Assembly (NCBI RefSeq): GCF_000381045.1
Contig: NZ_KB905730.1
Location: 1-64,000, forward strand
Direction: 5' to 3'
Length of the DNA: 64,000 bases
Origin: Thermus scotoductus DSM 8553
Lineage (GTDB): Bacteria; Deinococcota; Deinococci; Deinococcales; Thermaceae
Below the pieces are notes generated by a model. The model saw only the letters and a list, made by a program, of their open reading frames with translations. It did no database searches and was not told the DNA's origin. Each line of letters opens with the position of its first letter. Position 1 is the stretch's first letter. Made by a program: the position numbers and the translations under genes. Below, piece by piece: positions 32,307 through 49,507 of this stretch.

Positions 32307-32777
32307 GTGAGCATGCCTCCTGAACTCTACGTGATCCTGGTGGCCGCCCTGCCGGTGGTGGAGCTGAGGGGAGCCATTCCCCTGGGGGTGGCCCTGGGGC
32401 TTTCCCCAGGAGAGGTTTTCCTTTTGGCCCTCCTGGGCAACCTGCTGGTGGCCCCGGTGGCCCTCTTCCTTTTGCCTTGGGCGGTGGCGCTTCTGACCCG
32501 GGTGCCCTTCCTGGCCAAGCTCTGGGCGGCCCTCGAGGCCCGGGTGCGCCTCAAGGGGGAGGAGCAGGTGCAGCGCCTGGGGGCCCTGGGCCTTTTCCTC
32601 TTCGTGGCCGTGCCCTTGCCGGGCACCGGGGCCTGGAGCGGGGCGGTGCTGGCGGTGGTCTTGGGTCTAAAAGGGCGCTACGCCCTCCTGGCCATCTCCC
32701 TGGGGGTGCTGGCTGCTGGGCTTATCGTTCTCCTCCTTACCGGTGGGGCGGTGGTCGGGCTAAACTACCTGCGATGA
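32307..32777 (+). CDS. Small membrane protein of the COG2426 type (putative small multidrug export protein)
   Basis: A 156-residue, strongly hydrophobic protein with about four membrane segments. LYVILVAALPVVELRGAIPLGVALGL and LFLFVAVPLPGTGAWSGAVLA fit the COG2426/'small multi-drug export' family (SMMEP), which are re-entrant-loop membrane proteins with no proven substrate. It can begin at GTG 32307 or ATG 32313; no Shine-Dalgarno separates the two. It overlaps the following fusion gene by 4 bp and is likely cotranslated with it. Confidence 0.75.
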   Translation: MSMPPELYVILVAALPVVELRGAIPLGVALGLSPGEVFLLALLGNLLVAPVALFLLPWAVALLTRVPFLAKLWAALEARVRLKGEEQVQRLGALGLFLFVAVPLPGTGAWSGAVLAVVLGLKGRYALLAISLGVLAAGLIVLLLTGGAVVGLNYLR

Positions 32778-34435
32778 TGTTCGTCCTCTTGCCCCTTTCC
32801 TATGCCCTGGGCGCCTTGCCCTTGGGGTACTGGCTGGCCAGGCGGCGGGGCGTGGACCTGCGCACGGCAAGCCCCTACACCCTGGGTTTGGAAACGGCCT
32901 TGAGGCGGCTTGGGCCGGGCCTTACCCTTTTGGCCTTCCTCCTGGACTTCGCCAAGGGGTACTTGCCCCTGGCCCTGGGGAGAGGCTTGGGGCTTGGCGT
33001 GGAGGAGCTTTTGGCCCTGGGGGTGGCGGTCTACCTGGGCCACCTTTATCCCCTCTTCTTCCGGGATCCCTGGCCCCTTCGGGCCAAGGGGGCGGGGGTT
33101 CTTTTGGGGGTGCTGGCGGGGCTACCCCTGGAGCCAGCCTGGGGCATGGTCCCCGTGGCCTTGGGCCTTGCCCTTTACGCCCTCACGGGCTATGCCTCCT
33201 TGGGGGCCCTGGGGCTTCCCCTGGGCCTCTTTGGCGTCCTCCTTTTCGGTGGGTTTCCCCTTGGAGCCAAGGTCCTTGGGGGCTTGCTTTTTCTCCTGGC
33301 CCTTTGGCGCTACAAGGAGAACCTGGGCCGTATCCTGGAAGGCACCGAGCCCAGGCTGGGTAGTCCCCTGCCCCTGCCCTCGGAAAGGCAGGTGGTTTGC
33401 GCCTTTCTCATCCATCCCCTCACGGTGGAGGATTTCTGGCAAAGCCCCCGTTTCCGCTGGGCCCGGCCCCTGGTGCGCCTGGGGCTTTTGAAACAGGCCT
33501 GGATAGAGCGCCTGGCGGAGCTTTTCCGTCCCATGAAGGTGGGGGAGGTGAGGGGGGTGAGGACGGCGGATGGCCGGGAGGTTTTGTGCCACCTCATCTC
33601 CGCTCCCCTGCTACCCCACCAGATCAAGGCCAAGCCGGAGCTGGCGGTAAGGCGGGCCGTCCAAGGGGCCAGGCTCGCCAAGGAGCTTGGGGCCACGGTG
33701 GTAGGCTTAGGGGCCTTTTGGAGCGTGGTGGGGGAGAAGGGCAAGAGGGTACAGGAGGCGGTGCCGGATATAGAGGTGACGAACGGGGGGGCCTACACCG
33801 CCGGCACGGTGAAGGCGGCCATCCCCAGCATCCTGGCCCACTTTGCCCAAAGTGGGAAGGACCTTAAGAAGACCACGGCGGCGGTGGTGGGGGCGAACGG
33901 GGTGGTGGCCTTCGGCATTGCCCGGCAGATCGCTCCCTTGGTGGGGCGGCTCATCCTGGTGGGAAGGGATAGGGAAAGGCTGGAAAAGGCGGCGGACAGC
34001 CTGCGCAAGAACCTGGAGCGCAAGGGGCAAGCCCCCGAGATCGCGGTGACCACCGAGGTGGCCGCCATCCGGGAGGCGGACCTGGTCTTCACCGCCACCA
34101 GCGATCCGAACCCGGTGATCTACCCTGAACACGTGAAGCCAGGGGCCTGGATCTACGACGAGGGGGTGCCCCCCGACGTGCACCCCTCGGTGAGGGAGGT
34201 GCCGGGGGTCAGGGTCATCCCCGGGGGGGTGGTGCGGCTTCCCGGGAGGGCGCGGGCCACCTTGGACCTGCACTTCGGTGCCCCCGACCAGGTGCCCGCC
34301 TGCCTGGCGGAGACCATGATCCTGGCGGCAGAGGAGGCCTTCGATCGCAAGAGCCTGGGGGGCGAGGTGAAGGCGGAGAACATCCAGTTTTTCGTGGAGC
34401 GGGCGGAGGCCTTGGGGTTTAAGGTGGTGGAGTGA
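32774..34435 (+). CDS. Fusion: degenerate PlsY-like membrane domain plus acyl-ACP-reductase-like domain
   Basis: A single uninterrupted 553-residue frame. Residues 1-195 align with PlsY acyltransferases in topology and ending (LWRYKENLGRILEGTEPRLG matches the PlsY terminus at 48905), but the substrate motif GSGNxGATN is replaced by ASPYTLGLE and the GHNY/GGKG loop by GHLYPLFFRDPW, so acyltransferase activity is doubtful. Residues about 205-553 resemble cyanobacterial acyl-ACP reductase: VVCAFLIHPLTVEDFW, GLGAFWSVV, TNGGAYTAGTVKAAI and the nucleotide-binding AAVVGANGVVAFGIARQIA (369-387). It may reduce acyl chains at the membrane. ATG at 32774 overlaps the upstream stop, and the end overlaps mqnB. 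Confidence 0.75.
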   Translation: MMFVLLPLSYALGALPLGYWLARRRGVDLRTASPYTLGLETALRRLGPGLTLLAFLLDFAKGYLPLALGRGLGLGVEELLALGVAVYLGHLYPLFFRDPWPLRAKGAGVLLGVLAGLPLEPAWGMVPVALGLALYALTGYASLGALGLPLGLFGVLLFGGFPLGAKVLGGLLFLLALWRYKENLGRILEGTEPRLGSPLPLPSERQVVCAFLIHPLTVEDFWQSPRFRWARPLVRLGLLKQAWIERLAELFRPMKVGEVRGVRTADGREVLCHLISAPLLPHQIKAKPELAVRRAVQGARLAKELGATVVGLGAFWSVVGEKGKRVQEAVPDIEVTNGGAYTAGTVKAAIPSILAHFAQSGKDLKKTTAAVVGANGVVAFGIARQIAPLVGRLILVGRDRERLEKAADSLRKNLERKGQAPEIAVTTEVAAIREADLVFTATSDPNPVIYPEHVKPGAWIYDEGVPPDVHPSVREVPGVRVIPGGVVRLPGRARATLDLHFGAPDQVPACLAETMILAAEEAFDRKSLGGEVKAENIQFFVERAEALGFKVVE

Positions 34436-35112
34436 TGTGGCTCCTCCTCTCCCCCACGGCCCTCGAGGCCTCCTTCCTCCGGGGCGAACCCTTCTCCTTC
34501 CTGGGGAGAAAGGGGCTTAGGGGAGAGGGCTTTGTCTGGCTGGAAACCGGCGTGGGCAAGGTGAACATGGCCCTTACCCTGGCCGCCTGGGCCAGCCGGA
34601 ACCCGGCGGAGAAGGCTTTGCTTTTCGGCATCGCCGGGGCCTACCCGGGCTCGAGCCTCCTTCCTGGGGATGTGGTCCTGGTGGGGGAGGAGGTGGAGGC
34701 GGACCTGGGTACCCAGGAGGGCCTTAAGCCCTTGGGCTTTCCCGCCTTGGAGGTGGCGGGGAAGGCCTACTACAACCGGTTTCCTCTGGATTCCAGCCTT
34801 ACCCGGGCGTTGGCCCGGGTGTTGGACCTCCAGGTGGTGGTGGGGCTCACCCGGGACCGGGTTTCGGAAAACCCGGGGGAGGCGGAGGCTTTGGCCTCGC
34901 GCTGGGGGGCCCAGGTGGAGAGCATGGAGGGAGCTGCCTTTGCTCGAGCGTGCCTGGCCCTGGGCATCCCGGGGGTGGAGGTCCGGGCTATTTCCAATCC
35001 GGCGGGGGTGCGGGACAAGGGAGCGTGGAGGATTCCCTTGGCGGTGAGGTCCTTGGAGGGAACCCTGCCCCCCCTTCTTGGGGGAGCCTTCCCTGCGGGA
35101 CTCCAAGGATAA
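34435..35112 (+). CDS. mqnB: Futalosine hydrolase
   Basis: A 225-residue nucleoside phosphorylase-fold hydrolase that releases hypoxanthine from futalosine in the futalosine route to menaquinone. LETGVGKVNMALTLAAW, FGIAGAYPGSSLLPGDVVLVGEE, QVESMEGAAFARACLALGIP (with the ME-G catalytic site) and VRAISNPAG are characteristic. The start ATG at 34435 shares its A with the TGA of the preceding fusion gene. No other men/mqn gene is in the window. The 157 bp after it hold only the sodA terminator. Confidence 0.9.
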   Translation: MWLLLSPTALEASFLRGEPFSFLGRKGLRGEGFVWLETGVGKVNMALTLAAWASRNPAEKALLFGIAGAYPGSSLLPGDVVLVGEEVEADLGTQEGLKPLGFPALEVAGKAYYNRFPLDSSLTRALARVLDLQVVVGLTRDRVSENPGEAEALASRWGAQVESMEGAAFARACLALGIPGVEVRAISNPAGVRDKGAWRIPLAVRSLEGTLPPLLGGAFPAGLQG

Positions 35113-48904: not shown

Positions 48905-49507
48905 ATGGGGTCGGCGCTTCTGGCTCTGGTGGTGGCCTACCTCTTCGGCTCCATTCCCGCCGGGGTTCTGGTGGCCAGAACCTACGGGGTGGACATCCGC
49001 AAGGTGGGTTCGGGCAACATCGGGGCCACCAATGTCCTCAGGGCCTTGGGGCCTGGGCCCGCCTTGATGGTGGCCTTCTTTGATGTCTTCAAGGGTGGGG
49101 TGGCCGTCTTGATCGCGCGGGCGGTGGGGATAGAGGGACCCCTTTTGGGCGGGGTGGCTTTGGCGGCGGTGCTGGGCCACAACTACTCCCTGTTTTTGGG
49201 GTTTAGGGGGGGAAAGGGGGTGGCCACCAGCTTCGGCACCCTCCTCTTTCTGGATCCCATCCTGGCCCTGTGGACCTTCCCCATCGGGGTGTCGGTGATG
49301 CTCCTCACCCGGTACGTGTCCGCGGGGAGCATGACCGGGGGGGTGGCGGCCATGGTTTTGGCCCTGGCCCTTTCCCGCCCCCTTTGGGAGGTGGTCACCG
49401 TGGGCCTCATGGCCCTTCTCATCTTCTGGACCCACCGGGAAAACTTGAAGCGTCTCCAGGCGGGAACGGAAAGGCGCCTGGGGGAAAAGGAGGGAGGCCG
49501 TGCTTGA
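48905..49507 (+). CDS. plsY: Acyl-phosphate:glycerol-3-phosphate acyltransferase
   Basis: A 200-residue integral membrane enzyme that acylates glycerol-3-phosphate with acyl-phosphate, the first step of phospholipid synthesis. All three motifs are intact: [31 protein letters not shown] and [18 protein letters not shown]. It ends [26 protein letters not shown] (48892-48897) ends 7 nt before the ATG, so it is probably leaderless. It overlaps bshB1 by 8 bp. Its intact motifs contrast with the degenerate PlsY domain at 32774. Confidence 0.95.

Follow-up and report, generated by a model that had tools for sequence, protein, structure and literature searches.

The closest described relatives of the gene analysed here are the acyltransferase PlsY and a family of acyl reductases. 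In PlsY from Aquifex, glycerol 3-phosphate (G3P) is bound through its phosphate by Ser35, Arg45, Lys104 and Asn180 and through its hydroxyl by Ser142 and His177, whereas acyl phosphate is held by His92, Thr41 and the 104-107 loop. Mutating Ser35, Thr41 or His177 has a severe effect. The acyl-ACP reductase (AAR) of cyanobacteria has the dinucleotide motif GX(1-3)GX(1-2)G and an acyl-enzyme cysteine, Cys294, whose equivalent in PigE is Cys296. PigE both reduces and transaminates in cell lysates; the report consulted describes this as not yet shown for the purified protein. TamH, coupled with TamA, converts fatty acids to amines.

We found that one gene of Thermus scotoductus DSM 8553 joins a PlsY-like domain to an AAR/PigE-like reductase. 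The gene lies at 32774-34435 (+) of the window, the 64,000-nucleotide stretch of DNA that we analysed. A first-pass annotation had described one continuous frame joining membrane and soluble domains, and this was borne out: the 553-codon frame is single and open, with no stop between the halves, and encodes 553 amino acids. Both ends of the gene overlap the adjoining genes, by ATGA with the upstream gene for a COG2426-type membrane protein (32307-32777, +; PF06695 match) and by GTGATG with the downstream futalosine hydrolase gene mqnB (34432-35112, +). We treat both simply as neighbours.

The neighbourhoods give no direct support for any function, as the annotation had anticipated. Relatives of the COG2426-type gene were present at 19 of 73 fusion loci and relatives of mqnB at 20 of 73, all Thermaceae-type by record title. 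In Trueperaceae, the fusion has as neighbours prmA, an RNA methyltransferase gene and a further gene that we take to be dnaB. At one locus (L038), genes for an acyltransferase-3 protein and a phosphoribosyltransferase flank the fusion, a pair seen in no other stretch. Neither a transaminase gene nor a constant lipid gene adjoined the fusion in the annotated neighbourhoods. We rejected operon support for a lipid role, as no lipid-related neighbour was constant across loci.

The membrane half (residues 1-197; 32774-33364, +) is a complete PlsY-length domain, as first proposed. Residues 8-187 matched PF02660 with an E value of 1.5e-25 and 90.7 bits, above the gathering cut-off of 24.1. The score against the equivalog model TIGR00023 fell below its cut-off (57.8 vs 137.2 bits). 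We compared an AlphaFold2 model of the fusion (mean pLDDT 93.6, pTM 0.90) to known structures using VIA-align. PlsY (5xj6) aligned over 192 of 200 residues (Z 21.4, rmsd 2.8); that is, this half has the PlsY fold.

The PlsY active site is altered. Eight site residues are known in PlsY (S35, T41, R45, H92, K104, S142, H177 and N180), and the fusion protein of the window (P0001) retains four of them, Arg45, His92, Lys104 and Asn180; Ser35, Thr41, Ser142 and His177 are replaced. Among 48 Deinococcota-type orthologs, 47 carry Glu at the Thr41 position (Glu40; 32891-32893, +), 46 carry Pro, Ala or Val at that of Ser35, and 32 carry Tyr at that of His177. Asn180 is lost in Trueperaceae. His92, part of the acyl-phosphate "phosphate hole", is invariant in all 48 (His90; 33041-33043, +), as is Gly105. 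Gly102 is always Arg (Arg103; 33080-33082, +), in every fusion row filled at that position.

The host genome has three PlsY-family genes besides the fusion, as determined by PF02660 search. One, inside the window at 48923-49486 (+; match limits), is a separate PlsY with canonical motifs, THREN among them. The other two are at G000:C1:110350-110826 and G000:C2:136303-136821 (L188), and one of these two sits in a 415-residue open frame.

The first-pass annotation was correct that the PlsY site of the fusion is altered while an intact plsY lies elsewhere, but its term "degenerate" undersells the polar residues that are conserved. Given the lost G3P residues together with these conserved ones, G3P acyltransferase activity is probably gone from the Deinococcota fusions, which probably still have a site for phosphate that has gained charged residues. 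Judged from the alignment, the PlsY half appears to be a repurposed site, not merely a degenerate one, with E40 nearly invariant and H90, R103 and G106 invariant. It would also be conceivable that this half is a ligand-free membrane anchor and that the reductase uses acyl-ACP alone, and both the loss of four of the eight known site residues in P0001 and the faster evolution of the PlsY half (mean pairwise identity 43% vs 61% for the reductase, 42 diverse rows) fit such an anchor. In contrast, eleven polar residues in this half are conserved in at least 95% of the same 42 rows, several of them at the PlsY acyl-phosphate site, and the oldest branch has an intact PlsY site (see below). We consider an anchor of this kind unlikely.

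The annotation had also likened the soluble half (residues 206-553; 33389-34432, +; delimited by model and sequence matches, including AAR 6jzu) to AAR. Sequence, fold and the catalytic cysteine all support this. Residues 258-550 matched the PigE model with an E value of 3.8e-32, at a score far under the model cut-off, and residues 261-549 matched the AAR model TIGR04058 with an E value of 8.2e-15, at 54.9 bits vs a curated cut-off of 449.7. The bit score against the PigE model was twice that against the AAR model. Solved relatives found by sequence were PlsY 5xj5, PigE 4ppm and AAR 6jzu. By fold, Foldseek placed AAR at the top (E 4.8e-19), followed by the carmabin-pathway TAD and then PlsY. 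AAR 6jzu aligned with the fusion model over 320 of 341 residues at 25% identity (Z 26.6, rmsd 3.1), and the model has the three-domain AAR fold. Shikimate dehydrogenase and glutamyl-tRNA reductase, considered as alternative families for the Rossmann part, were rejected on weaker sequence matches and Z scores of 13 to 15.5 vs 26.6; the best shikimate dehydrogenase rows had a Z of 13.5. Neither outcome that the annotation had named as refuting, a better match to another family or a stop separating two genes, was obtained.

The reductase half has the catalytic cysteine of AAR. Cys510 (34301-34303, +) aligns with the acyl-enzyme residue Cys294 of AAR and is present in 47 of the 47 rows that reach that position. 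The conserved dinucleotide loop GANGVVAFG (residues 373-381; 33890-33916, +) is in the same place as AAR 162GATGDIG168. Its GANGVVA portion has the first two glycines of the motif; at the third position this protein has Ala, and most of the fusions from outside the phylum have Gly. Based on family, cysteine and fold, we infer that the reductase half would form an acyl thioester on Cys510 and reduce it to an aldehyde, as AAR does.

The same domain order occurs throughout the phylum, both in the Deinococcota genomes examined and in a scan of species genomes. We found a strong match to the fusion (E below 1e-80) in 107 of 111 Deinococcota genomes. In 93 of the 111, one match ran from residue 20 or earlier to residue 550 or later, and in 14 the match was partial, cut or frameshifted (107 and 93 are hand counts from match rows). 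Because of the matches in 107 genomes, the fusion is neither chance nor an assembly join. Conservation across the phylum and at 73 loci likewise rules out two genes with a stop between them. The four genomes of the 111 in which a strong match was missing are G072, G076, G077 and G100; in G100, which is 96% complete, a profile search recovered no more than part of the final 56 positions.

The 73 loci were obtained by scanning 84,980 species genomes and are nearly all Deinococcota by record title; Trueperaceae are among the carriers of the gene. Six loci are labelled Actinomycetota, Armatimonadota or Bacillota (L147, L151, L153, L154, L155 and L156), with L154 labelled Candidatus Nitrosymbiomonas (Armatimonadota), and two (L148 and L152) are from unassigned MAGs. 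The genus Deinococcus is not among the 73 loci and was not recognisable among the examined genomes, the nearest stand-in being G001. Ribosomal protein L20 of G001 scored 213 bits with 1nkw and 159 bits with 10px, which we take to be D. radiodurans and T. thermophilus, respectively; that is, it is nearer to D. radiodurans. The corresponding scores for G108 were 169 and 160 bits. Deinobacterium chartae has a sub-cut-off AAR match.

We built trees of each half. Of the 73 loci, 67 were taken forward; of these, L139 was excluded because its length was not a multiple of three, and 66 passed. L123, L141, L142, L150, L159 and L161 were excluded as partial matches or repeats of a Thermus gene already represented. 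Alignment A3 contained 47 loci plus the window gene, kept below 88% identity; the 48-row ortholog alignment omitted L029, which is frameshifted, and L033, which is the L028 gene again. The PlsY tree omits L152, which was too short, and the reductase tree omits L156.

The 47 fused PlsY domains formed one clade relative to 18 stand-alone ones (support 100/98). The first branch within this clade was L147 with L155, weakly joined (96/46). L147 retains all eight PlsY site residues and L155 retains seven, with Ser for Thr41. The intact fused sites of L147 (110-1816) and L155 (4965-6572) suggest possible bifunctional G3P acyltransferase/acyl reductases. A PF02660 search of the genomes with these two loci (G111 and G114, MAGs of unstated completeness) found no other PlsY-family gene, and G113 and G116 have a separate PlsY copy besides the fusion. 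G112, the genome of L151 and also a MAG of unstated completeness, has an altered fused site; no other PlsY-family gene was found there by the same search, and no PlsX, which would leave it with no evident way to make lysophosphatidic acid if the MAG is complete. In the reductase tree, drawn with PigE-type rows on the opposite side, the Deinococcota reductases formed one clade (99/99) with Thermaceae, Deinococcales MAGs and Trueperaceae as groups within it, and the unassigned MAG locus L148 fell inside this clade. This is the pattern expected for a gene inherited from the ancestor of the phylum.

The lipids of the phylum suggest a use for the aldehyde. In Thermus and Meiothermus, the main phospholipid is an N-glyceroyl alkylamine; it is related to the Deinococcus lipid and has been called an unambiguous chemical marker of the Deinococcus-Thermus lineage. 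The evidence is structural for Thermus, Meiothermus and Deinococcus and consists of TLC behaviour for Oceanithermus and relatives. A gene carried almost throughout the phylum is in keeping with a lipid that marks the lineage. T. thermophilus has an iso-heptadecanyl alkylamine and uses iso-C17 as an acyl chain too; the alkyl groups of D. radiodurans are unbranched. This match between alkyl and acyl chains is what one would expect if cellular acyl chains were reduced with no carbon gained or lost. Formation of a fatty aldehyde followed by transamination would be the simplest route to the alkylamine. According to a 2022 article, no enzymes had been identified for the "third hydrophobic chain" (PMC9636437). 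In the open-licence PMC literature, as far as its text was available, we found no description of this fusion or of alkylamine genes.

Our preferred reading is that the fusion is a fatty-acyl reductase bound to the membrane and that the aldehyde it makes becomes the alkylamine chain of N-glyceroyl-alkylamine phosphoglycolipids; we give this a probability of about 0.5. As in AAR, Cys510 would take up a long acyl chain as a thioester, which NAD(P)H would then reduce to the aldehyde. The PlsY-like domain would anchor the reductase in the membrane, and its phosphate hole (His90, Arg103, Arg/Lys105 and Gly106) probably binds acyl phosphate, from which phospholipid synthesis draws acyl groups, or hands the chain over. 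The enzyme that makes acyl phosphate, PlsX, is present in five of six genomes tested. It was not found in the sixth, G112, which has the fusion; this argues against acyl phosphate as the sole donor, if that MAG is complete. A separate PLP transaminase would then convert the aldehyde to the alkylamine, later amide-linked to glyceric acid. The first-pass annotation had proposed a membrane-bound route to long-chain aldehydes or alcohols. The aldehyde remains the best reading of the parts, but its likeliest fate is an amine rather than diols or alcohols: PigE and TamH, relatives of the reductase, carry transaminase domains and form amines. We know of no alkylamine lipid in the Armatimonadota or the other MAG lineages that bear the fusion, which speaks against this fate. 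Alkane production was ruled out, because aldehyde-deformylating oxygenase (ADO) was found in none of the 111 phylum genomes.

A more specific version holds that the fusion is a fatty-acyl-phosphate reductase, in which the PlsY-type pocket loads acyl phosphate, a committed intermediate in making phospholipids, and the AAR-type cysteine yields the aldehyde and thus the amine of the marker lipid. It would have arisen once, from a bifunctional protein with an intact PlsY site that may still be the sole PlsY in some Armatimonadota-like bacteria. Taken as a whole, we regard this version as rather unlikely.

The PlsY-like domain might also be an enzyme with a new acceptor or donor, for example one that joins the alkylamine to an acyl phosphate such as 1,3-bisphosphoglycerate to give the glyceroyl amide, with Glu40 holding or deprotonating the amine. 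The use of acyl phosphate by PlsY, the D form of glyceric acid in the phosphoglycolipid and the four conserved residues noted above would all fit such an enzyme. However, Asn180 is lost in Trueperaceae and the lipid groove of PlsY is built for acyl phosphate, and we consider this very improbable.

Long-chain diols are the main rival fate for the aldehyde. They have been reported in Thermus, Meiothermus and probably Truepera, all lineages with the fusion gene, and one Truepera diol is probably iso-C15. However, diols are minor in Meiothermus, and the sources consulted do not report them for Deinococcus, where they would escape the usual methods. The second diol of Truepera is iso-C18, one carbon above iso-C17; since C16 and C17 are the iso acids listed, it would not arise by simply reducing the main acids. 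In addition, relatives of the fusion reductase make amines. A diol fate seems quite unlikely.

If the fusion supplies an aldehyde for amination, as we favour, a transaminase would be its partner. One class III aminotransferase of Thermus (L053; G000:C2:128407-129516) was the best match to the transaminase part of PigE in its genome, at 405.9 bits, of five over the cut-off. It is nearest to putrescine aminotransferase and PigE and scores under the cut-off of every listed model. In families f1 and f4, 59 of 64 genomes have an ortholog with at least 70% identity, against none of 47 genomes of the other three families (hand count). L053 is a candidate fatty-aldehyde transaminase for families f1 and f4 only, and no phylum-wide partner emerged. 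Of 13 transaminases found in G001 and G108, 8 were scanned, and most of these belong to LysJ, GABA or further class III types.

The fusion gene is a concrete knock-out candidate for the alkylamine lipid step in a genetically tractable thermophile. It would also be a case of a phospholipid-synthesis enzyme turned into what may be the loading site of a reductase, with an intact ancestor-like form in other bacteria.

Each known system shares part of the fusion. PlsY (PF02660; 5xj6) shares the family match and the fold, and the fusion adds a C-terminal reductase. Cyanobacterial AAR (TIGR04058; 6jzu) is the best fold match and shares Cys294, but it works with ADO, which is absent here. The carmabin-pathway TAD (9e50 and 9e56) is the second-best fold group, with Z about 22; its residue numbers, 1912-2279, indicate that it is part of a large synthase. 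All six matches to the reductase in the plasmid collection lie in class III aminotransferase proteins, in both domain orders: the reductase is in front in Methylocystis and Thioclava, adjoining methyltransferase and acyl carrier protein genes, and behind the aminotransferase in Haematobacter. The Haematobacter plasmid gene (L205, 1525-4230) has the TamH-like aminotransferase-reductase order and adjoins a gene of the selenoprotein-B family; the stretch viewed contains no cluster of the prodigiosin type. We found no class III transaminase domain in the fusion chain. PigE (prodigiosin), the best model match, and TamH (tambjamine) belong to the same reductase family and have the same cysteine, but these natural-product enzymes carry their own class III transaminase domain, whereas the fusion has a PlsY-like membrane domain instead.
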